DNA of 35,320 nucleotides from Bacteroidota bacterium (GTDB lineage: Bacteria; Bacteroidota; Bacteroidia; Flavobacteriales_D; Sanyastnellaceae): positions 1 to 35,320 of the forward strand of contig JAQBTQ010000024.1 in NCBI GenBank assembly GCA_027624855.1, read 5' to 3'. A model generated the notes under the pieces. It was not told the DNA's origin. It did no database searches and saw only the letters and a list, made by a program, of their open reading frames with translations. How positions within the stretch are numbered: the stretch's first letter is position 1; each line of letters starts with the position of its first letter. This document shows, in pieces, positions 1,602 through 35,320 of the stretch. Made by a program: the position numbers and the translations under genes.

Positions 1602-3041
1602 TTGAGTTCATTTAACGACTTAGGCCTTTGTGATCCCGTTTTGCAAGCGATCAAGGCCATGGGGTATGAGACCCCAACCCCCATTCAAGCACAAGCCATT
1701 CCAAAGGTTCTCGCCGGACATGATGTCCTTGGCGTAGCGCAAACCGGCACAGGAAAAACTGCCGCCTTTAGCTTGCCCATGATCCACAAGCTTCATCTCG
1801 AGCGGTATGGTGGTCAGTTTCGCCCAATCCGTGTGCTTATCCTGACACCCACTCGAGAATTGGCTACACAGATTGAGGAAAATATCCTGGATTACACCCA
1901 AAACATCAAACTTTTTTCTGCTACGCTTTTTGGAGGTGTAAGTCAGCAAAGGCAAGTTCAAAAACTACGCAGAGGTGTTGACATTGTTGTTGCTACTCCC
2001 GGTCGACTCTTGGATTTGCAAGATCAGGGATTCGTGAACCTCAAACACCTCGAATACTTCGTGCTCGATGAAGCCGATACCATGATGGACATGGGGTTCA
2101 TTCATGACCTTCGACGCATCATTAAGCACTTACCCAAGGAGCGGCAATCCCTCTTCTTCTCGGCCACAATGCCGCCAAATATCTTGCAATTCGCAAGCAC
2201 CATGCTTCGCGACCCAGAACGCATTGAAGTTGCACCTGAAAGCAGCGCAGCAGAGACCGTTGACCAGCGCCTGATGTTTGTGAACCAAGGGGATAAAAAA
2301 GATCTCCTCGTTCACTTACTCAAGAAAGAAGAGGTGGAAACCGCTCTCGTGTTTACCCGCACTAAATACGGTGCTGACAAGGTTGTCCGATTCCTCAATC
2401 GCAACAAAATCAAATCCGAAGCCATTCATGGCAACAAAACCCAGCCCCAACGCGATCGTGCCATGAAAGCCTTCCGTAAAGGAGACTTGAATATTTTGGT
2501 CGCTACCGATATCGCGGCACGGGGTATCGACGTGACTGGAGTTAGCCACGTCATCAACTACGAAATACCGAACATTTCTGAAACGTATGTCCACAGGATT
2601 GGGCGTACGGGAAGGGCTGGAGCTTCCGGTGTCGCATGGTCATTGGTCAACGAATCCGATGAGCGTAAGTACATGATGGAAATTCAACGATTGATGGATC
2701 TTGAAGTCCCTGTTATTGAGGACCATCCGTGGCACAATGACATGGACAGTATTCCGTTAAAGCCGGAACGCGGTTCTCGAGGCGAATCAAATGATGGAAG
2801 TCAACGCCGAAAAGACTCAAAAAAGAGTTCCGATCGCAATCGAAGTAATCACTCCCGTAAACCAGCTCAACACAAAAATTCGCACACCAATCAGAGGCAA
2901 CGAAATGATGACGGCAGCGAGAAACCCGCCAAAGCAGGATCATTCAATCGCAATAAGTTTCGAAAGAAGAAAAAGAACACTTTCGGAAGTAGCGGGCGGA
3001 AATTGAAGCCAGACGGAAACACGTCTTCGCGACAGTCATAA
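1602..3041 (+). CDS. DEAD-box ATP-dependent RNA helicase, RhlE-like
   Basis: 479-residue cytoplasmic RNA helicase that unwinds structured RNA using ATP. All core motifs are present: Q motif GYETPTPIQAQAIP (21-34), Walker A AQTGTGKT (46-53), PTRELA (83-88), DEAD (156-159), SAT (187-189), ARGID (306-310) and HRIGRTGR (331-338). After about residue 390 comes a low-complexity tail rich in Lys, Arg, Ser and Asn, typical of RhlE-group proteins and likely to bind RNA non-specifically. The start is a TTG; it gives the usual MSSFNDLGL opening just ahead of the Q motif, and no in-frame ATG fits better. It stands alone, 105 bases after the CotH gene. RhlE is the closest group, but paralogues cannot be separated by eye. 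Confidence 0.95.
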   Translation: MSSFNDLGLCDPVLQAIKAMGYETPTPIQAQAIPKVLAGHDVLGVAQTGTGKTAAFSLPMIHKLHLERYGGQFRPIRVLILTPTRELATQIEENILDYTQNIKLFSATLFGGVSQQRQVQKLRRGVDIVVATPGRLLDLQDQGFVNLKHLEYFVLDEADTMMDMGFIHDLRRIIKHLPKERQSLFFSATMPPNILQFASTMLRDPERIEVAPESSAAETVDQRLMFVNQGDKKDLLVHLLKKEEVETALVFTRTKYGADKVVRFLNRNKIKSEAIHGNKTQPQRDRAMKAFRKGDLNILVATDIAARGIDVTGVSHVINYEIPNISETYVHRIGRTGRAGASGVAWSLVNESDERKYMMEIQRLMDLEVPVIEDHPWHNDMDSIPLKPERGSRGESNDGSQRRKDSKKSSDRNRSNHSRKPAQHKNSHTNQRQRNDDGSEKPAKAGSFNRNKFRKKKKNTFGSSGRKLKPDGNTSSRQS

Positions 3042-3153
3042 CAAGCTCAAGCACATTCAAGGCCCTTGGTGACAACTGTGGGCGCATCCGTGAACCTGAT
3101 TAGACTTTGAGGGTTCTCACTTTACGGAATCGTTTACGAATCGAACCATTTCG

Positions 3154-4332
3154 ATGAAGTCGCCTCAACAATTGTGCTTTGATGATGCCCGTTCTTTTTT
3201 CGAAGAATGGCAACGACACCCAGAGTCTTCCCCGCTGGATTCATCCTCTATTCTGAAGAGGCTCCAGGAAATCGAGATGGAGATTCAAGCCACAGGAAGT
3301 TACACTCATAGATTTGAGGAACTCGTCTTTGGTGCGCGGCTAGCTTGGAAAAACAGCAACCGCTGCATCGGTCGTCACCTGTGGCGTTCTCTCGAAGTTC
3401 GTGATCATCGAACCCTTCATCAACACCCCAATCGCGAAGCGCAAATCATCCAAGCTTTGCAAACCCATCTCAAAGACGCATTTAGAGGGGGTAAAATCCG
3501 AAGCGTTGTCAGCATTTTCGCTCCGAGAATACCAAACCAACCCGATGAAGTGCGGATGGCTAATCATCAATTGATCCGGTACGCGGGATTCGAAGCTCCA
3601 TCAGGAATCACAGGCGACCCCCATTCTGTCAAGCAAACACAGCATTTCGAGAATGTCGGATGGAGCCCTACAAACCGAGGGCACTTCACTCCCTTGCCTT
3701 GGCAATTTTATTTCAAAGAATTGCCGAGCCAGCCTCATGATTTCTTCGCTTCTCACCCTGAATTACTTCATGAAGTGAGCATTTCGCATCCTACATGCGA
3801 AGCAATTGAATCTTTGGGATTAAAATGGTACGCGCTCCCCGTCCTCGCCGATATGGCATTGAAAATTGGTGGCGTGGTTTATCCATTTGCCCCATTCAAT
3901 GGGTTCTATATGGGGACAGAAATCGGGGCCCGAAACTTCGGTGATGAAAACCGTTACAATTTGTTGCCTGCAATTGCAGCTTGCTTTGATTTAGATAGGA
4001 GTTCCGATCGGTCACTATGGAAGGATCAGGCATTGGTTGAGCTCAATCGCGCTATACTCCACAGTTTTGATCAAGCGGGAATCACCATTGGCGATCACCA
4101 CAATCTTGGAGCTCAATTCGAAGCCTTTTGCGTGCACGAATCCAATCAAAATCGAGAAATCCATGGCGATTGGACCTGGCTCAACCCTCCCCTTTCGGCT
4201 TCACAAACTCCGCAATTTCATAGAGACTACGACAACACCGTTTGCTCTCATACCAATTTCTTCTACCAGCCCCCGATTTGGAAGAAACTCCAGCTTCATC
4301 GCGCGAGTTCAGGATGTCCATTTCACCTTTGA
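3154..4332 (+). CDS. nos: Nitric oxide synthase oxygenase (bacterial NOS)
   Basis: 392-residue haem-thiolate enzyme that oxidises L-arginine to citrulline and nitric oxide. The signature AWKNSNRCIGR holds the haem-ligating Cys71, with Trp65 six residues earlier in the position that stacks on the haem. The substrate site reads PFNGFYMGTEIGARNF (247-262), with Glu256 placed to bind the guanidinium group; the family usually has GWYM, here GFYM. It ends with NFFYQPPIW and a short Cys-containing tail. There is no flavin reductase domain, as in Bacillus and Deinococcus NOS, so a cellular flavodoxin or ferredoxin system must supply electrons. The protein is somewhat longer than the Bacillus enzymes. 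It converges on the DUF389 gene with 22 bases between stops. No biopterin or reductase gene is adjacent. Confidence 0.95.
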   Translation: MKSPQQLCFDDARSFFEEWQRHPESSPLDSSSILKRLQEIEMEIQATGSYTHRFEELVFGARLAWKNSNRCIGRHLWRSLEVRDHRTLHQHPNREAQIIQALQTHLKDAFRGGKIRSVVSIFAPRIPNQPDEVRMANHQLIRYAGFEAPSGITGDPHSVKQTQHFENVGWSPTNRGHFTPLPWQFYFKELPSQPHDFFASHPELLHEVSISHPTCEAIESLGLKWYALPVLADMALKIGGVVYPFAPFNGFYMGTEIGARNFGDENRYNLLPAIAACFDLDRSSDRSLWKDQALVELNRAILHSFDQAGITIGDHHNLGAQFEAFCVHESNQNREIHGDWTWLNPPLSASQTPQFHRDYDNTVCSHTNFFYQPPIWKKLQLHRASSGCPFHL

Positions 4333-4354
4333 AAATCGCAATCCACCAAACCGC

Positions 4355-5770
4355 TTACAACGGAGCTTTCGTTGTATCGGCAACTTGCATGTGTGAAATC
4401 TCAGCCCCCGTATCATTCAAACGAAGCCGCAACCAAGCCTCGATGCGTTGCTGATCCGCCGCCGTCCAACTCAGCGTGTCCAGCGAGTCCCCCCAAAGAA
4501 TCTCCACATGGGGAGTTGGAGCCAACCCCGAACTCGACTGCATGATTCCCATTCTGGCACTCTGAATCGCACCGTGCTGCATTTCGATTTCGGCACCCAA
4601 TGAAGATGGCAATTGCAGCCGGTCAAGCAAAGTCGTTTTTTGGAGCAGTTCGGTTCGCAGCTCCTTGATCTCTGTATCTTTTGAACTGAGGGATTCTTGC
4701 CCTTCACTGTATAGGCTTATCAGCCTCGTCATCTCCTCCAAGCCTTGGGCGCCCTTTGTATTCTGTACGACCATCAACTCCGCGCCTTGGACCTCCCTTT
4801 CCAGTCCATCTGCCCATTGTTTGACAAGGTCATCGGGAACCGATTCTCCAAGCAATACCAAATGCACTTGAGGATATCCCGAAGACCAGTCAATTTCAGA
4901 TTTTACTACTTCTGTGCCGGGATATTGTGCGTGTTCTATGATGTACGCGTTGATGGATGAAGTTGTCAATGTTTCGCTTACCGTCTTATAAAAAATCCAG
5001 CCAGAGGGAATCACCAAGGCCAACAAAGCAATTCCAAAGTACCGCTTGTACTTCTTCTCCAAAGCCGGGTCCACAAAGGACTTTTGAGGAAAATTCAAGT
5101 AACGCACCACCAACGTGGTGGAAGTAGCAATCAAGATGGCATTGATTAGAAACAGATAAAACGCACCGAAAAAGTATTCCCACATTCCATGCGCCAAGCC
5201 AAATCCTGCTGTGCACAAAGGAGGCATCAGTGCAGTAGCAATTGCCACACCCGGAATCACATTGCTTTTTTCTTTTCGCGAACCAGCGAGAATTCCCGTC
5301 AATCCCCCAAACAAGGCAACCAACACATCAAGAAATGTTGGATTCGTGCGAGCAAATAGTTCACTCCCCGCTTCATCAATTGGTGAAATCAAGAAGTACA
5401 GTGCAGACGAAATGACCGCGATCCCTGAAGCCACTCCGAGGTTGACCAACGACTTGCGAACGGTATCAGAGTCATTGATGCCAATCCCCAGACCAAAGCC
5501 CATAATCGGGCCCATCAAAGGCGAAATCAACATTGCCCCAATAACCACTGCCGTCGAGTCCACATTTAGGCCAATGCTGGCAATCACAATGGAAAACACC
5601 AGAATCCAAAGGTTAAAGCCCCTGAACTCTATGTCCTTTTTAATTCCTTCAATGGTCGCTTCTGGATTGGATAAGTCGCGTATTTGTAGCCGATCAATGA
5701 CCAATGGCCGAACGATGTCTATCACCTTTTGCCATGGTGATTTCGAAGTGGATTGCTCGCTGTTTTCCAT
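4355..5770 (-). CDS. DUF389 family integral membrane protein
   Basis: 471-residue inner-membrane protein of the DUF389 family (TIGR00341-type), function not established. A short cytoplasmic N-terminus precedes about seven hydrophobic segments between residues 50 and 265, including the conserved VVIGAMLISPLMGPIMGFG and GVAIATALMPPLCTAGFGLA. The remaining ~200 residues are soluble and partly coiled-coil (around ELRTELLQKTTLLDRL), with charged stretches. The ATG at 5768-5770 is preferred over an in-frame TTG one codon upstream. An intrinsic terminator of the preceding gene ends only about 15 bases before this start, so expression may depend on read-through or on a promoter inside the upstream gene's end. 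It converges with nos. Confidence 0.88.
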   Translation of the reverse strand: MENSEQSTSKSPWQKVIDIVRPLVIDRLQIRDLSNPEATIEGIKKDIEFRGFNLWILVFSIVIASIGLNVDSTAVVIGAMLISPLMGPIMGFGLGIGINDSDTVRKSLVNLGVASGIAVISSALYFLISPIDEAGSELFARTNPTFLDVLVALFGGLTGILAGSRKEKSNVIPGVAIATALMPPLCTAGFGLAHGMWEYFFGAFYLFLINAILIATSTTLVVRYLNFPQKSFVDPALEKKYKRYFGIALLALVIPSGWIFYKTVSETLTTSSINAYIIEHAQYPGTEVVKSEIDWSSGYPQVHLVLLGESVPDDLVKQWADGLEREVQGAELMVVQNTKGAQGLEEMTRLISLYSEGQESLSSKDTEIKELRTELLQKTTLLDRLQLPSSLGAEIEMQHGAIQSARMGIMQSSSGLAPTPHVEILWGDSLDTLSWTAADQQRIEAWLRLRLNDTGAEISHMQVADTTKAPL

Positions 5771-5784
5771 CAATTATTACGCTT

Positions 5785-5813
5785 AAAAACCCCGAACGCT
5801 CGCGCATTCGGGG
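5785..5813 (-). terminator. Rho-independent terminator of the alpha/beta hydrolase gene
   Basis: On the minus strand a 7-bp perfect stem (CCCCGAA, 5790-5796, pairing with TTCGGGG, 5807-5813) closes a 10-base loop and is followed by five T residues (5789 to 5785). It lies about 24 bases after the hydrolase stop codon. Confidence 0.85.
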
Positions 5814-5836
5814 CTCTTCTCTAAATCAAATCAATA

Positions 5837-7399
5837 TTATTTCGATATCGAAATCAATTCTGAATTCGAACCGATTTGAATGACATACGTCCCAGCCGAA
5901 AGGTTGCTTAAGTCGACCGTAAAGTTTTTCTCCACCCCAATCAAAGGCCACTGCCGCACCATACGACCGTCCAGGCTGTACAACGAACAATGTGAAGCCG
6001 CTTGTTCAAATACAATGGTCGTCACGCCATTCGTTGGATTCGGATAAATCTGGAAGCCTGCATTTTGTTCAGCTTCATCCACTTGATTCACCGGTTCCGT
6101 TAAGCCCAAGGCTGCTGCCATACGTGGTGCAGTATATCCTTGGATAATGTCAATCCATGGTAAGGCTTCGTCGGCTCCCATCGTTGGGTTCATCATCAAC
6201 CCATTGGCAGCAATGTTCGACCCGTTGGCAGAATCAACTGCTTGGGTAACTGCAACATCCCACCACTGCCAAGGAGAACTATCGAATGGCTCTGTTGGAG
6301 CGCCGTCCACGTAGTTATTTAATACTGGATACAGGCCATCCATGCCATCGTTGAGCGCGTTTGCTGCTAGCGAAATGTCATCCGATAAATTCAAACTTTG
6401 GAAAACATCGTTGTTATTCGGAGCCGCCTGTGAATTGATCAACGTATGGAAATCATATGCACCGGTTGCTTCAATGACAGGCTCATTCGTTGTTGGCACC
6501 ACGACCACACCCGTGGTATAAGGCGCAAATTGATCATGCGGACAATGGAAACTCACCATTGGCACGTCTCCCGAATCCAACCATTCAGCAGAACCGAGCG
6601 CTCCACCTGTATTCATTTGAAAGTTGAAGTCTGAGCTGTAATCTGGGTAGTGCCCGATGCACAATTGGGTGCCGTCGGGTGCAAATCCATCTTGCTTGGC
6701 TTCAGGATCACCATTGATCGCCTCGATGACCATTGGAATAAAGGACCCGTCTCCTGGATCATACCAAAAGCTTGTAATGGCTTCACCAGCGTTGTTCAAA
6801 ATGATGTCATTGTAATCTTGCAGGGTTGCTGAAGCGAGCGTTACATAACCTCCTGTTCCATCCCCGAACATCGCAATCTTATCAGGATCAATTCCGTAGG
6901 TGTTCCCCATTTCAGCTGCATCCATCCTAAAATAGCGAACTGCCGTTCTCGCATCCTGCACGCCTCGATAAGCTGCATTGATCAATTGATACGTTCGTTC
7001 AACTTGAGTGCCTGCCAATGGGTTCCAGCCCAAACGATAATCAACCGAAGCAGTCACATAGCCCATGCGAGCAAATCGATTGCATAATTCCACAATTGAA
7101 CTGTCTTTGCGAGTGCCCAATGCAGAACCATTGAGGTATTGAGGCAAAAAGTTTCCTGTATGAAACAAGAGAACGAGTGGTCGATTTGTGAGGGTGTCGC
7201 CTACGGGTTCATACACGTCCATAAATTGTGGCAAGGCCGCAGGCGGCATCCCTTGCAATGCAGTAATCACCGTTACATTGGTCGCGTAAATGACATCTTC
7301 CGTGACCGAGACCTCGTCAAAAACCTCATCGAGGTAACGTTCTTGAGCGTTCAAGCCGAATACGGCTAACATCATTGAAATCGTAAAAATTCTTTTCAT
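5837..7399 (-). CDS. Secreted alpha/beta-hydrolase-fold protein with T9SS domain, nucleophile elbow altered
   Basis: 520-residue exported protein. The ATG at 7397-7399 is chosen because it gives a clean signal peptide (MKRIFTISMMLAVFGLNAQ); longer in-frame starts add a non-hydrophobic lead. The N-terminal ~430 residues resemble esterase/PHB-depolymerase-like alpha/beta hydrolases: RPLVLLFHTGNF (73-84), a segment ending SVDYRLGW (118-125), and IDPDKIAMFGDGTGGY (170-185). In this family the elbow is normally G-x-S-x-G, but here it reads G-D-G-T-G (179-183), so the usual serine is replaced by Gly181. The C-terminus is a type A T9SS sorting domain (FQIYPNPTNG to the end). It is transcribed alone and ends in a strong terminator. 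It could be a non-catalytic surface protein or use an unusual nucleophile; substrate unknown. Confidence 0.82.
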   Translation of the reverse strand: MKRIFTISMMLAVFGLNAQERYLDEVFDEVSVTEDVIYATNVTVITALQGMPPAALPQFMDVYEPVGDTLTNRPLVLLFHTGNFLPQYLNGSALGTRKDSSIVELCNRFARMGYVTASVDYRLGWNPLAGTQVERTYQLINAAYRGVQDARTAVRYFRMDAAEMGNTYGIDPDKIAMFGDGTGGYVTLASATLQDYNDIILNNAGEAITSFWYDPGDGSFIPMVIEAINGDPEAKQDGFAPDGTQLCIGHYPDYSSDFNFQMNTGGALGSAEWLDSGDVPMVSFHCPHDQFAPYTTGVVVVPTTNEPVIEATGAYDFHTLINSQAAPNNNDVFQSLNLSDDISLAANALNDGMDGLYPVLNNYVDGAPTEPFDSSPWQWWDVAVTQAVDSANGSNIAANGLMMNPTMGADEALPWIDIIQGYTAPRMAAALGLTEPVNQVDEAEQNAGFQIYPNPTNGVTTIVFEQAASHCSLYSLDGRMVRQWPLIGVEKNFTVDLSNLSAGTYVIQIGSNSELISISK

Positions 7400-7637
7400 G
7401 TGGTTGATAGTTTCGTTTCTTGGCAAATTAGCTTCGGAAGCTGCGCTGCCAACCATTCGTTTCAAAAGCTATGAACGATGGTTATCAACAATTTGAGTGA
7501 TGCAACTGCCTGGTTGCGCCATCACAACTGTTGCGTTTGGCCATCTTCTCAGTCCAGTTCGAACAGTCTGTAAAACTAAATTCACCCCCGATCCCTGAAC
7601 TGACGGATGATGGTTCAATTAATCATTACTTTAGGGC

Positions 7638-8087
7638 ATGCAGAAAATCCTCACTCCTCACTTTTCGCAGTTGGCGCCTTTGGTTTTGATGATCATCATG
7701 GGCGGCTTATGGAATAATTCCGCGGCACAAGATGCTTCAAAAACTCAACCTGAGATCATGCCCGTTTTGAACACTTGTGCCATCATCGAAGATCGGACGG
7801 AGCGTGAAACATGCTCCAACCAGGCCATCATGGAGCACATCATGAAAAAATTGATCTATCCAGAAGACGCGAAAAACGCTGGAATCGAAGGCACGGTGAT
7901 GGTCAAATTCGTAGTTGACACCAAAGGCCAAGTGACCGGAACTAAGGTGATGAAAGGCCCGAAAGAACTCTCGAAGGCAGCCATACAGGTCGTTCAAGAA
8001 TTACCCGGATTTGTGCCCGGAACCCAAAACGGAAAGCCTGTTGACACAGAGTTTGTGCTCCCCATTCGATTCGCATTGAGCAATTGA
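7638..8087 (+). CDS. Small energy-transducer TonB-family protein
   Basis: 149-residue protein with an N-terminal hydrophobic segment ending in a plausible signal-peptidase site (SAAQDA) and a C-terminal TonB domain over roughly residues 68-147. The domain shows the typical pattern YPEDAKNAGIEGTVMVKFVV, then DTKGQVTGTKVM and LPGFVPGTQNGKPVD. TonB domains contact outer-membrane receptors, but this protein lacks the Pro-rich periplasmic spacer, so a free periplasmic or weakly anchored role is likely. The 238-base divergent space to the hydrolase gene (7400-7637) holds no other gene, and I see no convincing promoter there. The precise function is inferred from the domain only. Confidence 0.85.
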   Translation: MQKILTPHFSQLAPLVLMIIMGGLWNNSAAQDASKTQPEIMPVLNTCAIIEDRTERETCSNQAIMEHIMKKLIYPEDAKNAGIEGTVMVKFVVDTKGQVTGTKVMKGPKELSKAAIQVVQELPGFVPGTQNGKPVDTEFVLPIRFALSN

Positions 8088-8154
8088 ATGCGCCGATACA
8101 GCGTTTAACTGAAGCACCGACTTACTCTTGAACGAGAACTGAAATTGCCCTTTC

Positions 8155-9024
8155 ATGGAATTACGACGAATACTCATCATTGTCTCCATCATCCTCACTG
8201 GGATTTGTCTTTATCTCGGGTTGCAGTTGCGGCAACAATCCGAAACCATCACGTCCGTCGAGTCCAGTAACACCTCCCTGACGTTGGAGCGTGATCAAGT
8301 TTTACTCGACTTAGAAAAATTGCGGTTTAGCTATGATACGTTGAGTACTGAAAATGCTATCATGCTCGCAGAAATTGCGGACCAACGCACACGCATAGAT
8401 CAGCTTGTTACGAAAGTGAAAAATGGTTCTTGGGAATTGAGTAAAGCAAAAAAAGAAGCCGAAACGCTTCGGTCAATTATGAAAGGTTACATCGTAACCA
8501 TCGATTCCTTGAATCAACTCAATCTGGCATTGATAGATGAAAATGACCAGATGAAAGCCCGCGTGGAAGAGGTTCAAGAGCGCAATGCAAACTTGGTCGA
8601 ACGCCAACAGAATATGGAAGAAATCATCGTCGCAGGACAAACCCTCCAAGCGGCAGAGATCAGTGCAGTAGGCATTCGAGTCCTTTCAAATGGTCGACAG
8701 CGGGAAACCATGCGAGCAGCAAGGAGCAGTATGGTAAAAGTTTGCTTCGCCATTTTGGAAAATCGAATTGCCGAAGCGGGTCCCAAAACCCTCCATCTTC
8801 AATTCGTAAACGAACAAAATCAAGTCCTGCCAGGAGAACAATCCGAAGCGGTCAATTCGATGGGAACAACCATCAGTGCTACCCGTGAAATCGATTACAA
8901 CAAAGAAAGGGTAGAAGCCTGTATCTTCTATATCCCCGTAGGCGAGCTCCCTGCCGGAGCTTATGTCATCAATGTACTTGAAGGAAATGAAAAGATTGGA
9001 TCAACGCAGCTTGTGCTGAATTGA
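8155..9024 (+). CDS. Membrane-anchored coiled-coil protein, function unknown
   Basis: 289-residue protein I cannot assign to a named family. Residues 6-25 form one transmembrane helix (ILIIVSIILTGICLYLGLQL). About residues 27-165 are strongly heptad-like with many Leu, Glu, Gln and Lys, indicating a long coiled coil. The last ~120 residues form a compact, probably beta-rich domain (from AVGIRVLSNGRQRE onward) ending in GSTQLVLN. Similar architectures occur in Bacteroidota proteins annotated only as hypothetical. It follows the TonB-like gene by 67 bases and may be co-transcribed with it. It converges with the next gene with two bases between stops. Confidence 0.75.
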   Translation: MELRRILIIVSIILTGICLYLGLQLRQQSETITSVESSNTSLTLERDQVLLDLEKLRFSYDTLSTENAIMLAEIADQRTRIDQLVTKVKNGSWELSKAKKEAETLRSIMKGYIVTIDSLNQLNLALIDENDQMKARVEEVQERNANLVERQQNMEEIIVAGQTLQAAEISAVGIRVLSNGRQRETMRAARSSMVKVCFAILENRIAEAGPKTLHLQFVNEQNQVLPGEQSEAVNSMGTTISATREIDYNKERVEACIFYIPVGELPAGAYVINVLEGNEKIGSTQLVLN

Positions 9025-9026
9025 TT

Positions 9027-9893
9027 TCAGTTTGATCCGCCTCTAATCATCCCATTTCCTAAAATGTAGCCTACGGCAAAAGACCATTCAACGTAGCGTA
9101 TTCCCTGTTCAGCTCCGGCCTCTGTAGGACCTTGAATTCGAATCCATGGAAGCGTCATCGCCCCAGCATGACCGGTTGTCTGAATGAAAAAGCGGCGGTG
9201 AACCTTGGCCCTTAAACCAAGGTGAGCCCCGACACCCAATCCACTGATATGTTGCGCGTTTTTCTGGCGCTCTCCAGCCCACGTAAAATCCGTACTACAA
9301 ACCACAAACCCAGCGCCAGCTGCTGCAAATGAACTCAGCGCCATGTTGCCCGAATGTCCCGTCCAGAGCGGATGGACATTTTCCAAACTGAACCGGACAA
9401 AGTTCAAGCCATCGCTATGCTCCAAATTGAATTGAGGTCCCCACCACAATGAATCCCCCTGCCAATTCATCTTTTGACCATTGGGTTCATCCAAAAAATC
9501 AGCGGAGGAAGCAAAACCATCTGCTACTACCCATTGCTTTTTCAATTTGTACTTCATGTGATCCCAACCCGCCGAAAACCACCAATTGGAATTGATCTGT
9601 TTTCCAAATCTCGCATTGAACTGAGGAATGGTGAATAAGCCAGGATGAAAATACACCTTCGCCTGAAACCGTTCGGGCATGTCGTTGGCCTCTGCATCAT
9701 GCAACACCACATCAAAGGCTTCTCCAGATCCATTCAATCCCCAAACGTGCACATCGGAAGGAGCATAGGCCGAGCGGTTGTAGCCCCAAGAGATATACCA
9801 TTCCGAATTTTCCGAATATTGCCCGCTTTGTGTCCAACCCTGGGAACCCACACCCATCCAAATACACAGCACCAATCCCCATCGAAAAATCAT
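9027..9893 (-). CDS. Secreted or outer-membrane protein of unknown function
   Basis: 288-residue product. The ATG at 9891-9893 is chosen because it opens a signal peptide (MIFRWGLVLCIWMGVGSQGW, cut near WTQS) and keeps the gene clear of the divergent yraN. The mature part is rich in Trp, Tyr, Phe and Gly in short alternating stretches (EWYISWGYNRSAY, NWWFSAGWDHMKYK, GLNFVRFSLENVHPLW). It ends with an aromatic strand (VRYVEWSFAVGYILGN-like) near the C-terminus. This pattern suggests a small outer-membrane beta-barrel. No named family recognised. Confidence 0.7.
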   Translation of the reverse strand: MIFRWGLVLCIWMGVGSQGWTQSGQYSENSEWYISWGYNRSAYAPSDVHVWGLNGSGEAFDVVLHDAEANDMPERFQAKVYFHPGLFTIPQFNARFGKQINSNWWFSAGWDHMKYKLKKQWVVADGFASSADFLDEPNGQKMNWQGDSLWWGPQFNLEHSDGLNFVRFSLENVHPLWTGHSGNMALSSFAAAGAGFVVCSTDFTWAGERQKNAQHISGLGVGAHLGLRAKVHRRFFIQTTGHAGAMTLPWIRIQGPTEAGAEQGIRYVEWSFAVGYILGNGMIRGGSN

Positions 9894-9930
9894 GGCGCGA
9901 ATGTAGGCCTTTTCTTCCCTCCATTTGTTC

Positions 9931-10296
9931 ATGACTAACACAGAACGAGGTAGGTGGGGCGAATGCCTTGCTGCCAATTACCTCATCAGCAAAAACATCA
10001 AAATTCACTCGAGAAATTGGCGGTGGAATAAGTTTGAGGTTGACCTCATCGGACAGACCAAAAACACGTGGGTATTTGTCGAAGTGAAGGTGCGGAAATG
10101 GGGATTCTACCAATCCGCCATTGATTCAGTTTCATTGCAAAAGCAAATTCGAGTCTCCAGTGCCGCACATCACTTCATTCAACAAAATCTGGTTCCCTTA
10201 CGTTCCGTGCGATTTGACATCATTTGTGTGGAATACGGTCGGCAATCCCATCGCATTCATCACATCGAAGATGCCTTCGTTTGCCTACCGAGATGA
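9931..10296 (+). CDS. YraN / UPF0102 family nuclease-fold protein
   Basis: 121-residue member of the YraN (UPF0102) family, which has a restriction-endonuclease-like fold and no settled function. The conserved core is visible: RGRWGECLAANYL (6-18), RNWRWNKFEVDLI (28-40) with Glu36 and Asp38, and VFVEVKVRK (48-56) with Glu51 and Lys53 in the PD-(D/E)xK arrangement. The ATG at 9931 is preferred over a TTG two codons upstream. It opens a plus-strand operon, with rluB starting 14 bases after its stop. Confidence 0.88.
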   Translation: MTNTERGRWGECLAANYLISKNIKIHSRNWRWNKFEVDLIGQTKNTWVFVEVKVRKWGFYQSAIDSVSLQKQIRVSSAAHHFIQQNLVPLRSVRFDIICVEYGRQSHRIHHIEDAFVCLPR

Positions 10297-10310
10297 GGTA
10301 TCTTTGTTCC

Positions 10311-11192
10311 ATGAAAAAACCCTCTTCCTCAAGGCCATCAGGTTCAAAAGCTGGCCAGTCTGGACGAAAATCCAATCCAGATTCAAGAAAGGATTTTCGC
10401 CCAGGTTCGGCAGGAAATAAGCGGTATGCTGGCCGTAGTGCGGGGGGAGGAAAACCGAAACATAAACCTTTGGGAGTTGCTGGCGGACCCTTGCGACTCA
10501 ATCGGTACATCGCAAATTCAGGTGTGTGCTCACGTAGAGAAGCCGACGCGTTGATTGAATCTGGTGTTGTTGAAGTCAATGGCGAAATCATTACCCAAAT
10601 GGGGCATAAAGTGAACCCCACTGACACCGTACATGTCGGAGGCACAGCGATTCGACCTGAAACAAAGCGCTATGTCCTATTGAATAAGCCAAAGGGGTTT
10701 GGCACATCTCCGGGTGACGCAAAAGCAAGGCGAGGCGTTATGGAATTGGTGCAAAAAGCTTGTCGAGAACACATTCGTTCCATCGATAAACTGGATCGAG
10801 AAAGCACCGGCCTGATGCTTTTTACCAATGATGAAGAACTGATGGTTCGCATGAACCACCCTCAATCCGGGGCAGCCAGGCTGTATCATATTGTTCTAAA
10901 AGAAAAGGTTCAGCAGGATCATCTTGACGCTTTGAAGAAAGGGTTCGTTGTCGATCAGGGGTTCGTTCGTGCAGAAGAGGCCGAATTTGCAAATGACGAG
11001 CATACACAAATTGGGTTAAGAATTACCTCGAGTAGAAGCCGCATCGCTCGACGCATGCTCGAGCAATTAGGATATCACGTCGTTAAAGTAGATCGAGTGA
11101 CTTTGGGGCCACTGACCAAAAAAGACGTACCACGGGGGAGCTTCCGTCATTTGACCCAATCAGAAATCAATCTATTGAGAATGAGTTGTTGA
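10311..11192 (+). CDS. rluB: 23S rRNA pseudouridine synthase, RluB/RsuA family
   Basis: 293-residue RNA-modifying enzyme converting uridine to pseudouridine, probably in 23S rRNA. The first ~58 residues are a basic Ser/Gly/Lys-rich extension, common in Bacteroidota members. An S4 RNA-binding domain follows (LRLNRYIANSGVCSRREADA, 61-80, to about 110), then the catalytic domain with SIDKLDRESTGLML, where Asp162 is the expected catalytic aspartate. The ATG at 10311 lies just past the yraN stop; an earlier in-frame start would overlap yraN widely. RluB is the likeliest member, but RluE/RsuA-type specificity cannot be excluded from sequence alone. Confidence 0.9.
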   Translation: MKKPSSSRPSGSKAGQSGRKSNPDSRKDFRPGSAGNKRYAGRSAGGGKPKHKPLGVAGGPLRLNRYIANSGVCSRREADALIESGVVEVNGEIITQMGHKVNPTDTVHVGGTAIRPETKRYVLLNKPKGFGTSPGDAKARRGVMELVQKACREHIRSIDKLDRESTGLMLFTNDEELMVRMNHPQSGAARLYHIVLKEKVQQDHLDALKKGFVVDQGFVRAEEAEFANDEHTQIGLRITSSRSRIARRMLEQLGYHVVKVDRVTLGPLTKKDVPRGSFRHLTQSEINLLRMSC

Positions 11193-11194
11193 GC

Positions 11195-11929
11195 ATGTCG
11201 GATAGCCTTGTCATCATCCCAACCTACAACGAAATCGAGAATGTCGAACGGATGCTCCATACCGTTCTTCAGCTTGACCCCGCTTTCCACGTCCTCGTAG
11301 TTGATGATGGATCTCCTGACGGAACTGCTCAAAAGGTGCAAGCCATTCAAGCCTCTTACCCTGACGCCATTCATTTACTTGAAAGGTCAGGAAAGCTCGG
11401 GCTAGGAACGGCCTACATTGCTGGTTTTCGTTGGGGGTTAGAAAAGGGCTACGACTACATTTTCGAAATGGACTGTGATTTTTCGCATAATCCACAGGAT
11501 TTGGTGCGACTTCGACAAGCTTGCGTCGACGGCGCAGATGTCGCTGTTGGTTCACGGTACACACGCGGCGGCCGCGTTAGCAACTGGCCTCTGGGGCGCA
11601 TCCTCATGAGTTTCTTCGCCTCTATCTATGTCAATGCAGTTTTATGGCTTGGCGTAAGAGACAGTACCGCCGGGTTCAAGTGTTACCGCAATCAAGTGTT
11701 GGACACGATTGATTTGGATCATATTCGGTTCATCGGATACGCGTTCCAAATTGAAATGAAGTACAACGCTCGAAGGCTGGGATTCAGGATTCAAGAAGTC
11801 CCCATCACATTCGTCGATCGTGAATTTGGAACAAGTAAAATGAGCATGGGCATTTTTAGAGAAGCTTTTTTGGGCGTTCTCAAAATGCGATTTACTCCTG
11901 TAAAACCCAGTAAAAACGAGAATTTATGA
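11195..11929 (+). CDS. Glycosyltransferase family 2, polyprenol-phosphate mannose synthase-like
   Basis: 244-residue GT2 enzyme resembling dolichol/polyprenol-phosphate mannosyltransferase (Dpm1 type), which loads a sugar from a nucleotide donor onto a lipid-phosphate carrier. Visible motifs are IIPTYNEIENV (7-17), VVDDGSPDGTA (35-45), the metal-binding EMDCDFSHNPQDL (91-103), and the acceptor-side block STAGFKCYR with EVPITFVDREFGTSKMS. There is no C-terminal membrane domain, as in short bacterial and yeast-type enzymes. It starts two bases after the rluB stop and shares an ATGA overlap with dihydroorotase, so it is translationally coupled. The actual sugar is not predictable. Confidence 0.9.
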   Translation: MSDSLVIIPTYNEIENVERMLHTVLQLDPAFHVLVVDDGSPDGTAQKVQAIQASYPDAIHLLERSGKLGLGTAYIAGFRWGLEKGYDYIFEMDCDFSHNPQDLVRLRQACVDGADVAVGSRYTRGGRVSNWPLGRILMSFFASIYVNAVLWLGVRDSTAGFKCYRNQVLDTIDLDHIRFIGYAFQIEMKYNARRLGFRIQEVPITFVDREFGTSKMSMGIFREAFLGVLKMRFTPVKPSKNENL

Positions 11930-31697: not shown

Positions 31698-33545
31698 ATG
31701 TGCGGAATCATTGGATACATAGGTGAGAAAGATTGCTTCCCCATCCTTATCAAAGGATTGCAGCGACTTGAGTACCGCGGTTACGACAGCGCTGGCGTTG
31801 CCGTATTGGATAAAAACAGTGCCATTCAAATCAAAAAGAAAAAGGGGAAAGTAGATGACCTTCTCACTTTTGTAGGTGATGATATGCCGCGAGGAACGAC
31901 TGGCATCGGACATACACGTTGGGCGACCCACGGACCGCCCAATGACGTCAATGCCCATCCCCATACAGCACGATTGGGGCGGCTTGCCATGATCCACAAT
32001 GGCATCATCGAAAATTATGAATCCCTTCGCACCAGTTTGGAGGCCAATGGCCACGCATTTGTTAGCGATACCGACACGGAAGTGCTGATTCACCTCATTG
32101 ACGAAGTACAAAGTCGAACCCAGGCGCCCATTGCTGATGCCGTGCAAATGGCGTTGAAAGAAGTCGAAGGTGCCTACGCAATCGCCATCATCGATGCGAA
32201 CGAGCCTGATTTGTTAATCGCTGCAAGAAAATCCAGTCCACTCGTCATTGGTGTCGGTGAAGAAAATGAATTCTACATAGCGTCCGATGCAACCCCCATC
32301 ATCGAGCATACCCAAAACGTCATTTACCTGGATGATGAGGAGGTCGCGGTAATGAATAAACTCGAGGGATTAACCATCCGTAACCTGCAGAACATTGTGG
32401 TTACCCCGGAAATCCATGAACTTGAAATGCAAATCGAAGCCATCGAAAAGGGCGGGTTTGATCATTTCATGCTCAAAGAAATTTTTGAGCAGCCCAATTC
32501 CATTCTGGATTCTATTCGCGGACGAATGAGCATTCAGCGATCCGAGATCAAGATGTCCGGAATCGATGATCACTGGGGACGGTGGGAAAATGCCGAGCGC
32601 ATTCTGATCATTGCATGTGGGACAAGCTGGCATGCCGGCCTTGTAGCTGAATACCTGTTTGAAGATTTTGCAAGGATACCCGTCGAAGTCGAGTACGCTT
32701 CTGAATTTCGATACCGAAACCCAGTCATCAAACCAAATGACGTGGTCATTGCCATCTCACAGTCTGGCGAAACTGCCGACACCTTGGCAGCAATCCAGTT
32801 GGCAAAACAACAAGGAGCCCATGTATTTGGGGTGTGCAATGTGGTGGGTTCGAGCATCGCGCGAGAAACCGACAGCGGAGCTTACACTCACGCAGGGCCA
32901 GAAATCGGCGTGGCGTCGACCAAAGCTTTTACTGCGCAAATCACGGTATTAACACTCATTGCTATGCTGGTTGGCAAGAAGAAAGGTCAACTCTCAGCTC
33001 AGCGCTTCAACCGGTTGATGGTTGAACTCAATGCGATTCCCGAAAAAGTGCAGAAGTTGCTTGAGCAGGAGGAGCGCATTAAAGAAATTTCTCGTCACTT
33101 CGTCAACAATGAAAATGCCCTCTACCTTGGAAGAGGTGTCAATTTCCCTGTGGCACTCGAAGGCGCGCTGAAGCTGAAAGAAATCAGTTACATCCATGCA
33201 GAAGGGTATCCATCCGCTGAAATGAAGCATGGCCCGATTGCCTTAATTGATGAAGAGATGCCGGTCTTTTTCATTGCTACCGCAGACGATGTTTATGAGA
33301 AAATCGTCTCGAACATTCAAGAGGTGAAAGCACGTGGCGGGCGACTGGTTGCGCTCGTCTCAGCAGGAAATACCGATCTGAAACAGTTGGCAGAGTTCGT
33401 GATAGAAGTGCCCAAAACTGACCAGTCATTGGCCCCTTTGCTCACCGTGATTCCGCTTCAATTGTTGAGTTATCACATCGCCGTCATGCGCGGCTGCAAC
33501 GTTGATCAGCCAAGGAACCTCGCTAAGAGCGTTACGGTGGAGTAG
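31698..33545 (+). CDS. glmS: Glutamine--fructose-6-phosphate aminotransferase (isomerising)
   Basis: 615-residue enzyme making glucosamine-6-phosphate, the first step to UDP-GlcNAc for peptidoglycan and LPS. Cys2 is the glutaminase nucleophile (MCGIIGYIG). The glutaminase domain includes LEYRGYDSAG, GIGHTRWATHG and VSDTDTEVLIHLI. Two SIS sugar-phosphate domains follow, with CGTSWHAGLVAEY, SQSGETADTLAAI and EGALKLKEISYIHAEGYPSAE. The canonical C-terminus LAKSVTVE is intact, so the adjacent element has not damaged the enzyme. The last 40 bases are overlapped antisense by the recombinase reading frame. No terminator is visible after the stop. Confidence 0.97.
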   Translation: MCGIIGYIGEKDCFPILIKGLQRLEYRGYDSAGVAVLDKNSAIQIKKKKGKVDDLLTFVGDDMPRGTTGIGHTRWATHGPPNDVNAHPHTARLGRLAMIHNGIIENYESLRTSLEANGHAFVSDTDTEVLIHLIDEVQSRTQAPIADAVQMALKEVEGAYAIAIIDANEPDLLIAARKSSPLVIGVGEENEFYIASDATPIIEHTQNVIYLDDEEVAVMNKLEGLTIRNLQNIVVTPEIHELEMQIEAIEKGGFDHFMLKEIFEQPNSILDSIRGRMSIQRSEIKMSGIDDHWGRWENAERILIIACGTSWHAGLVAEYLFEDFARIPVEVEYASEFRYRNPVIKPNDVVIAISQSGETADTLAAIQLAKQQGAHVFGVCNVVGSSIARETDSGAYTHAGPEIGVASTKAFTAQITVLTLIAMLVGKKKGQLSAQRFNRLMVELNAIPEKVQKLLEQEERIKEISRHFVNNENALYLGRGVNFPVALEGALKLKEISYIHAEGYPSAEMKHGPIALIDEEMPVFFIATADDVYEKIVSNIQEVKARGGRLVALVSAGNTDLKQLAEFVIEVPKTDQSLAPLLTVIPLQLLSYHIAVMRGCNVDQPRNLAKSVTVE

Positions 33546-35182
33546 GCGGCAGATATCCGGGTTGATTTCCCCGTATTTACTGAGGTTTTCAAGTGTTTTA
33601 TCACCAAAGGTGTACTACTACAGTTCCCTGAATTTGTGGTGGAATTGTGTAGTGGAATCTTAAGGGTGGTGTTAAGGTCGTGGGTCTGATCAGTGTGATT
33701 GTAACTGAGGTCTATTCGATGTAGGATCAACTTTAGAAGTTCTCTTTTTAGATCCCCCTCCCAATTCTCAATACCACAGACATAATTCACTATCAATTTG
33801 TAGTTGTTGTACCACTTTTTGTGATCAGAATCTATTTTCTGTAGACCTTTTAAATGGTCGATTTCCACAGAGACTTCATCTAAATCATGATTCAATGACT
33901 TTTTAAGTGACTCATAAACATCAGAACCTTCGTATTCTCCATACAGTTGTCTTTTCTCTGTTTCAACAATACCATTCTTGATTTTATCTTTTCGTTGTTC
34001 CAACATTATGAGTCTATTCTCAATGTCATCGAGTTGTTGTCCAATGATGTTACGGAATTCAACTATGTCTGATTTCAACAGAGTCTTAGATTCATGTGAT
34101 AAATGTCTATTGTCTTTAAGTGTAGTGAAAATAGAGTTCCATAGGAAATCGTCTGTGGTAGGGATATTAAGACACCTTTTCATATCACAGTTCAGACTCT
34201 TCTCAACTGACATGTTAAACCTCCGTTCACTCAATGGACAGTAGTAGTGATTTACATCTTGAGTCTCTTTTATTCGACCTCCAATTGGTCGTCCACAACT
34301 ACAGAAAATATAGTCCCTAAACAAAAATGATCTTGTTGTTCTATTGAACTGACCTCTCTTTTCCAATTTGAGTTTTCGAATATCCTTTACCTCATTGAAG
34401 AGTTGTTTTGAGATCAATGGTGGACAAGTGTATTCAATGGTAAACCCACTTTTCTTGTCTGTGAAGGATTGTTTACCAATGTAACATTCATTTCGGAGGA
34501 TAACTTGTATTGATCCTAGAGACCAATGTTTGTTTCCTCTTCGTGTTTGAACTCCTTGGTGTTCTAAGTAGTTCTTAATTTCCTTAATCGAATAACTTTG
34601 ATGGTAAAGGGAGTAGATTGTCATTATGTGTTTTGATTCTTCAGGGTGTGGTTCCAATAATGAACCCTTATCCAATTTCTTTATTTGATAACCAAACGGA
34701 GGGTCTCCTCCTCTGTAGTAATTGGACTTTACTTTTTCAAGTTTACCAAGTCTACTTCTTTCTGATCGGATCTTATTATCGTATTGAGAAATTTCGGAAA
34801 GAATACCTAAGATCAGGTTTTCCATGTCTCCGGTGGTGTCATATTTACCAGTTGAAGTGTAGAGTACGACTCCTTGTTTAACCATCTTCTGTCTAATCAG
34901 AAACCAAGTAGATGTATTACGGGATAATCTATCTGTGTTCCAAACGTAAAGGTGTTTGATTTCACCTTTATCAATTCGTCTTAGTAACTGAAGTAGGACA
35001 GGACGTGTCTCTAAATTGTCAGTTGATGATGATGTACCTCCTTCGTTGTGTAACTCATATTTCATTCCAAGAGATTTGGAGAGTTCTATTCCTTTTTCTC
35101 TTTGAGTTGAAAGACTTGTTCCTCCTTTCTCTTCTGTTTGAGTAGAGGTACTTACTCTTGTTAGTATGTGTATTGTTTCCAT
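33506..35182 (-). CDS. Large serine recombinase, C-terminal tail running into glmS
   Basis: 558-residue site-specific recombinase. The catalytic resolvase domain (about 4-150) has the nucleophile Ser11 in TRVSTSTQ and the active-site arginines in DRLSRN (84-89). A 'recombinase' DNA-binding domain follows (GGDPPFGYQI, 158-167, to about 275), then a zinc-ribbon-like region (Cys294, Cys296, Cys315, Cys332/337) and a coiled coil (about 365-450). Residues 464-509 are encoded inside inverted repeat copy A. Beyond residue 509 the sequence looks non-conserved, and the final 13 residues are antisense to glmS, so the tail is probably host-derived. The gene is AT-rich (roughly 37% G+C in sampled lines) against about half in its neighbours, a sign of transfer. 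The start codon lies one base beyond repeat copy B. Confidence 0.88.
   Translation of the reverse strand: METIHILTRVSTSTQTEEKGGTSLSTQREKGIELSKSLGMKYELHNEGGTSSSTDNLETRPVLLQLLRRIDKGEIKHLYVWNTDRLSRNTSTWFLIRQKMVKQGVVLYTSTGKYDTTGDMENLILGILSEISQYDNKIRSERSRLGKLEKVKSNYYRGGDPPFGYQIKKLDKGSLLEPHPEESKHIMTIYSLYHQSYSIKEIKNYLEHQGVQTRRGNKHWSLGSIQVILRNECYIGKQSFTDKKSGFTIEYTCPPLISKQLFNEVKDIRKLKLEKRGQFNRTTRSFLFRDYIFCSCGRPIGGRIKETQDVNHYYCPLSERRFNMSVEKSLNCDMKRCLNIPTTDDFLWNSIFTTLKDNRHLSHESKTLLKSDIVEFRNIIGQQLDDIENRLIMLEQRKDKIKNGIVETEKRQLYGEYEGSDVYESLKKSLNHDLDEVSVEIDHLKGLQKIDSDHKKWYNNYKLIVNYVCGIENWEGDLKRELLKLILHRIDLSYNHTDQTHDLNTTLKIPLHNSTTNSGNCSSTPLVIKHLKTSVNTGKSTRISAAYSTVTLLARFLG
33656..33792 (-). repeat. Inverted repeat copy A, inside the recombinase coding end
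   Basis: 137-bp segment whose reverse complement occurs at 35184-35320 with 135 matching bases. Mismatches are at 33725 (silent, Ile486) and 33733 (Lys484 against Gln in the other copy). It encodes recombinase residues 464-509 on the minus strand. Its inner edge is clear at 33792; the outer edge may extend left of 33656, since the partner runs off the window. Confidence 0.95.
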
Positions 35183-35183
35183 T

Positions 35184-35320
35184 TAGTGAATTATGTCTGT
35201 GGTATTGAGAATTGGGAGGGGGATCTAAAAAGAGAACTTCTACAGTTGATTCTACATCGAATAGACCTCAGTTACAATCACACTGATCAGACCCACGACC
35301 TTAACACCACCCTTAAGATT
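35184..35320 (+). repeat. Inverted repeat copy B, just upstream of the recombinase start
   Basis: Reverse complement of copy A, two mismatches in 137 bases. The match ends abruptly at 35184, two bases before the recombinase start codon, and still continues at the last base of the window. Any promoter of the recombinase must lie within or beyond this copy. Confidence 0.95.
35186..35320 (+). pseudogene. Headless recombinase C-terminal reading frame, running off the window
   Basis: On the plus strand this segment is open in the same frame as the recombinase C-terminus (from VNYVCGIENWEGDLKR to NTTLKI) with one substitution, Lys to Gln, and one silent change. There is no catalytic domain in front of it; the preceding sequence belongs to the divergent recombinase start. 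It could be the remnant of a second recombinase copy or an alternative C-terminal exon-like tail reached after inversion. The sequence right of the window is needed to decide. Confidence 0.6.

Follow-up and report, generated by a model that had tools for sequence, protein, structure and literature searches.

The stretch of DNA analysed here (the window, 35,320 bases from a Bacteroidota bacterium) is the entire contig C22 of a 40-contig, 2.29-Mb assembly, and at its right end a gene for a large serine recombinase (LSR) converges on the 3′ end of glmS. Comparison with relatives identifies this end as the putative glmS-side junction (attL) of an integrative element that carries its own LSR. The overall reading, which we hold with moderate confidence, is that the LSR gene of this element overlaps the attachment site attP, that the element possesses two attP sites in inverted orientation, and that a C-terminal segment of the recombinase, termed T, would be kept or lost according to the attP through which the element integrates.

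The target gene, which we take from its sequence to be glmS (glucosamine-fructose-6-phosphate aminotransferase), occupies 31698-33545 on the plus strand as an open reading frame (ORF) of 615 aa. This ORF was matched in 21 of 22 congener genomes, with 78-92% identity for full-length or near-full-length matches. Its last codons are part of the attL core GTTACGGTGGAGTAG (33531-33545), which matches the core common to three junctions in the relative G507. The recombinase ORF (33506-35182, minus strand) starts with ATG, encodes 558 aa at this junction and contains a Resolvase domain (PF00239, E 8.7e-22) followed by a Recombinase domain (PF07508, E 8.1e-17). An integrase family of the PHROGs collection, phrog_95, aligns with residues 6-514, and the best matches among solved structures are to large serine integrases (9dxh, SPbeta, E 4e-15). 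By its domain content the protein is classified as an LSR, with putative catalysis at att sites. Among plasmid records, 127 had a match, all below 60% identity, and the 20 matches listed ranged from 22 to 29%.

Two arms, 33656-33792 and 35184-35320, form an inverted repeat of 137 nt with two mismatches (135/137) and a spacer of 1391 nt. This repeat exceeds chance, because the other nine listed for this 3.3-kb region measure only 12-29 nt and because both copies recur, resolved with 7 differences in 262 positions, within a 385,553-bp contig of a relative. When the window's own assembly was searched with the repeat, matches were found at these two places only. Copy A belongs to the putative P′ arm, the recombinase C-terminal coding DNA up to the core, which spans 33531-33792 on the minus strand when its extent is taken from alignment with relatives; 33656-33792 is the repeat part visible in the window. 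Copy B (35184-35320, plus strand) is truncated, since 35320 is the end of contig C22, and where both copies are visible the full repeat measures 263 bp (G507), 267 bp (G508) or 272 bp (G510). Translated on the plus strand, 35183-35320 gives recombinase residues 464-509 with 96% identity. An earlier reading made from the sequence only had pointed to an inverted, frame-compatible copy of the C-terminal coding segment, and both the copy and its frame are borne out.

The last recombinase codons (33506-33545) lie antisense within glmS. Since the two 3′ ends overlap, the residues after YSTVT are glmS antisense: past the core, at 33506-33530 on the minus strand, the ORF ends with LLARFLG and a stop in place of T, the T side being read in relatives. 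Therefore, the tail that could be replaced by inversion is no recombinase domain itself.

The protein searches covered 114, 395, 399 and 240 genomes (overlapping samples, searched at different thresholds) and recovered few relatives. The close ones in the scan of species genomes are G507 (locus L017, 96% amino acid identity), G508 (L018, 91%) and G509 (L019, 92% over residues 1-342), all records titled Flavobacteriaceae metagenome-assembled genomes; a viral collection contributed a single one, G510 (L020, 89%). In G507 the whole element is present (about C7:205504-226539, ~21 kb). It is bounded by inverted terminal repeats of 1340 bp with 99.0% identity (13 differences), each of which contains segment T and a small serine recombinase, S, and the module formed by arm, recombinase and arm adjoins glmS. 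Three junctions share the core form GTYACRGTRGARTA. Read in the direction of glmS, the glmS junction has the order B-core-P′ (attL) and the far junction P-core-B′ (attR); the same core is thus found in direct orientation at both ends of the element (core1 and core3). Where the inner terminal repeat meets the recombinase module, the order is P-core-P′, a complete attP that is inverted relative to attL and attR. Judged by this arrangement, copy B of the window corresponds to the beginning of the P′ arm of the inverted internal attP, which is complete in G507, G508 and G510. The sequence-only reading had proposed a candidate self-inverting locus; the complete element in G507 led us to replace the idea of a stand-alone shuffling cassette by that of attL and an inverted attP.

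The full layout with three junctions was seen in one record only, G507. Partial layouts are attL in G508, G509 and G510, the internal attP in G508 and G510, and attR in G509, on a contig that starts where the terminal repeat has its inner end. The left copy of S in G507 (L035, 840-1462, minus strand) is frameshifted and the right copy is intact; a sequencing error could explain the difference. A search of viral contigs with S returned only the already known G510 record. By the names of the annotation library, the cargo of G507 includes relatives of DrmD, of a type IIG restriction-modification enzyme and of DruE, and that of G510 a type I methyltransferase with a specificity part.

In all three internal attP copies that reach past the core (G507, G508 and G510), the C-terminal frame of the recombinase runs without a stop through arm, core and T, and attP thus lies within the integrase reading frame. 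T measures 114 codons in 4/4 copies (G507, G508, G509 and G510). The ratio of nonsynonymous to synonymous substitution rates (dN/dS) of T is 0.12-0.18 in 6/6 pairs, the differences being mostly at third positions. Calculated in the same simple way, the ratio is 0.07-0.09 for the recombinase body (residues 1-463) and, on few sites, 0.12-0.21 for the coding part of the arm (464-511) and 0-0.22 for the tail preceding the core (512-550). These ratios indicate purifying selection on T, also while it is detached, and that T is conserved even in genomes that now have it detached speaks for a recurrent attached state. After base shuffling, the tail is open in 11-12% of cases and a stretch of T length in 0.2%; therefore, the openness of the tail is weak evidence, and the openness of T together with its conservation is stronger. 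Relatives of T in G673 and G688 are also open and in phase and carry the YSTV core motif. LSR and T would accordingly form one protein wherever they are joined, and because the open frame beyond copy B leads into the conserved T, an inversion would exchange the tail of the recombinase. Of the tail swap envisaged by the sequence-only reading, the part that stands is the frame open into a selected segment; the present tail is glmS antisense that integration would have created.

T itself resembles little in the databases. No match at E 0.1 was found in PHROGs or NCBIfam, the best match among PDB sequences had E 0.16, and Pfam gave two matches only, both under the curated cut-off, the better one being Recombinase (E 0.004). 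An AlphaFold model of P′-T is poor (mean predicted local distance difference test score, pLDDT, 61), residues about 121-170 being better and helical. A Foldseek search with this model found nothing at E<=0.001, and a DeoR match at E 2.4 is a mere hint of a helix-turn-helix. A 20-base T pattern had no match in the viral contigs. T-like sequences are present in 17/399 genomes of the order, and this spread suggests a wider set of elements using the glmS site. Loci with T-like sequences include L108, L111, L112 and L113.

The orientation of the recombinase relative to glmS was read at ten junctions, all from different genomes (the window, G507, G508, G509, G510, G560, G673, G691, G439 and G154), and is convergent in eight and codirectional in two. 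In G507, G508 and G510 the LSR lies between inverted arms that align at 97.3-99.6% identity, and it converges on glmS as in the window. More distant recombinases are also convergent in G560 (48% identity), G673 (37% over residues 211-558) and G691 (residues 342-558), and G154 retains a convergent remnant at glmS. The G673 and G691 loci are cut by contig ends, and the N-terminal LSR parts were not found in their assemblies. The opposite orientation is seen in G509, where one strand carries glmS, then one arm and then the recombinase start codon before the contig stops at residue 342. It is also seen in G439, which belongs to another family with ~50% identity over the N-terminus: an inverted LSR C-terminal segment, similar from about residue 388, comes after glmS and is itself followed by a codirectional recombinase start, and the contig stops short of the C-terminus of this recombinase. 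Both codirectional cases rest on contigs ending inside the recombinase, and short reads may not span the arm repeat. These two loci would fit the inversion proposed by the sequence-only reading, but their orientation could also result if the element integrated by way of the other attP, with no inversion in place. The contigs of G509 (L038, G509:C38, position 1) and G691 (L101, G691:C39, position 1) break at the same recombinase residue (~342), although the two copies are distantly related. In seven distant LSR loci with limited flanks (L010-L016, 2.7-4.4 kb in all), no inverted repeat flanking the LSR was found (0/7), the sole repeat match being a 34-bp self-palindrome in L010; L014 and L015 had no LSR match by tblastn and were counted as LSR loci by the protein search only.

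The other end of the element can be traced in the genome from which the window comes. Contig C24 carries at its end the core and after it the start of T, with 16/16 residues as in G507, which identifies this end as the putative attR of the window's element, on a separate contig not joined to C22. Past that attR come another element related to the first and, after it, a decarboxylase gene. The empty site, glmS followed by a convergent decarboxylase homolog, is seen in 15/21 congener loci; the remaining 6/21 had no match to the glmS-end motif used and stand outside this count. Because glmS is followed by the decarboxylase homolog in these congeners, both elements are best read as insertions between these two genes. 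The second element (L065, G000:C24:98000-109433, at 1985-11316) carries an LSR homolog (33% identity, broken by a stop), a homolog of S, methyltransferase genes, a T-like ORF and terminal inverted repeats of 24 bp, the only inverted repeats found in it. Elsewhere in the window, the ORF at 3154-4332 (plus strand) appears to resemble bacterial nitric oxide synthase oxygenase.

These observations can be combined in the following mechanism. The element would have inserted into the last codons of glmS, most likely by means of its own LSR, whose gene would overlap attP in the order body, P′ arm, core and, past the core, the C-terminal T. The second P′ arm, inverted just upstream of the LSR start codon, would form with core and T a complete inverted attP. 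Excision by attL x attR would yield a circle with two inverted attP sites in inverted repeats of ~1.6 kb, on which the LSR would read into T at either end, whichever way it faces. Integration via the attP at the LSR 3′ end would produce the form seen in the window, convergent and with glmS-antisense codons in the place of the severed T; integration via the other attP would produce the codirectional form of G509 and G439, in which LSR-T is expected to be intact. An inversion of the LSR segment between attL and the inverted attP would interconvert both forms. We infer the circle, the interconversion, a catalyst for it (LSR, S or homologous recombination), a difference in activity between the two states and a function of T. 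The known LSR domains stay in place after integration, and only the C-terminal segment is lost.

Several findings weigh against this mechanism, and they bear on the alternatives as well. LSR-T has never been observed as a single continuous ORF, because the contigs of G509 and G439 end inside the LSR, and the internal T copy of G507 has a one-base shift near its end (the copy at attR is intact). An ATG is located near the start of T in G507 (one), G673 and G688, and therefore T may be translated alone. In the second element on C24 the LSR, itself broken, does not reach the core and T has an ORF to itself, an arrangement that speaks against an LSR-T fusion as a general rule; T had no similarity by BLAST to the C-terminal part of that LSR. 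T directly follows glmS, on the same strand, in four genomes (G630, G565, G609 and G548). The ATG codons, the T-like ORF on C24 and the position of T after glmS would fit an explanation in which T is a separate small protein, for instance a helper or a directionality factor, encoded on the P side of attP, with the continuity of the LSR frame being incidental. However, the first 40 T codons of G508, G509 and G510 contain no ATG, GTG or TTG, and the frame is open and in phase across the core in 6/6 copies examined. We consider a separate T protein rather improbable.

The history of the arms raises a different doubt. In G560 the inverted arm is decayed (138 bp, 86%), lies about 2.6 kb upstream of the start codon and is equally close to the C-terminus of G691 (86%), the LSR ORF is still open despite this decay, and T was not found in that genome. 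The inverted arm could thus be the by-product of an old rearrangement, homogenised and sometimes flipped by homologous recombination or gene conversion, with a functionless change of tail and no programmed switch; with arms of 263 bp and terminal repeats of 1340 bp there is sufficient length for homologous recombination. Within a locus the arms agree at 135/137 positions in the window, 255/262 in G507, 261/262 in G508 and 262/262 in G510 (97.3-100%), and between loci at 83.9-97.3%. The upper between-locus values, 97.1% for the window and G507 and 97.3% for G509 and G510, are near those within loci, and homogenisation of the arms is therefore clear mainly for G508; G507 is the weakest case, and the identity within G510 may be inflated by assembly. 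Against a mere by-product stand the recurrence of an inverted C-terminal segment upstream of the start codon at ~50% divergence, in G439, and the purifying selection on detached T, and we regard this explanation as rather improbable.

The small recombinase offers yet another possibility, namely that S, of which each terminal repeat encodes a copy, is an invertase dedicated to flipping the LSR module or the cargo and that the LSR only integrates. Its best relation in PHROGs is to DNA invertases (phrog_125, E 9e-34) and it adjoins the inverted attP. Yet the point common to the repeats is the att core, no invertase site was identified and one of the G507 copies is frameshifted, which makes this division of labour quite unlikely. 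An assembly artefact, either a fold-back or a chimeric contig end, was considered because the window ends within a repeat at a contig end and because a 262-bp repeat is open to mis-joining in short-read assemblies, a caution that also applies to the mechanism proposed above. The G510 record (L039, IMGVR_UViG_3300025809_001788) has identical inverted ends of 3571 bp, both carrying the glmS end, and is probably a mis-joined integrated element and not a virus. As the main explanation, an artefact was rejected: the copies differ, and three further records show the layout, one of them inside the 385,553-bp contig. It is largely refuted by G507 and appears highly improbable. The two features that the sequence-only reading would have had followed up, paired inverted C-terminal segments and a frame that continues beyond copy B, are both present in G507, G508 and G510, the latter open and in phase in 3/3 readable relatives.

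The closest precedent for an integrase that is altered by its own integration is provided by the archaeal suicidal tyrosine integrases of the SSV1, pTN3 and pT26-2 types, in which, as here, the attachment site is located within the integrase gene and integration therefore disrupts the gene, according to the available part of a review (PMC8371274). The same part of that review describes gene-disrupting recombinases as exclusive to archaea (PMC8371274). The system at glmS differs in that it involves a bacterial serine recombinase and not a tyrosine recombinase of the archaeal superfamily, that only a C-terminal segment is lost, and that the second, inverted attP could keep the gene intact. With large serine integrases (SPbeta, PDB 9dxh; TP901-1; A118) the recombinase shares the Resolvase and Recombinase domains. 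In those integrases attP usually lies outside the coding region, whereas here the frame crosses attP and a second inverted attP is present. Invertible switches and C-terminal shufflons, such as those of Hin and Rci, likewise have inverted sites on both sides of a segment, and flipping that segment would swap a coding tail; in the present case the flanking sites are formed by arms of attP and attL of the element, the recombinase gene itself is part of the segment and the inversion is a prediction. The yeast 2-micron plasmid, in which two unique regions lie between inverted repeats that hold the recombination sites, resembles the predicted circle in layout, but the element described here is integrative and uses a serine and not a tyrosine recombinase, its circle is predicted only, and there was no sign of amplification. 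Like Tn7-like elements at attTn7, it uses the end of glmS as a target, the genes seen adjoining the junction being serine recombinases. Engineered fusions of an integrase with a recombination directionality factor (RDF), in the part of the report available, illustrate that a C-terminal addition alters which att pairs recombine (PMC5737554). Those fusions are laboratory constructs, and T is not known as a directionality factor. Searches of the open-access literature of PubMed Central brought up no paper recognisable as a description of this layout, judged from titles and the beginnings of abstracts, and glmS does not occur in the main text, as partly available, of a systematic survey of LSRs (PMC10083194).

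A bolder proposal, which we put forward tentatively and regard as possible more than probable, is that the element at glmS is a bacterial serine-recombinase counterpart of the suicidal integrases that escapes their suicide problem. Duplication of attP in inverted orientation would give a locked form without T and an unlocked form with LSR-T, interconvertible by inversion, each integration would choose between them, and the enzyme would rewrite its C-terminal end and thereby also the mobility of an island of defence genes. If this is true, archaea would not be alone in having a self-disrupting recombinase, and a natural DNA rearrangement would add a C-terminal segment to a serine integrase or remove it. 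Such a system would then bear on the control of integration and excision, on compact genetic switches, and on the fixation or mobility of defence islands at glmS.

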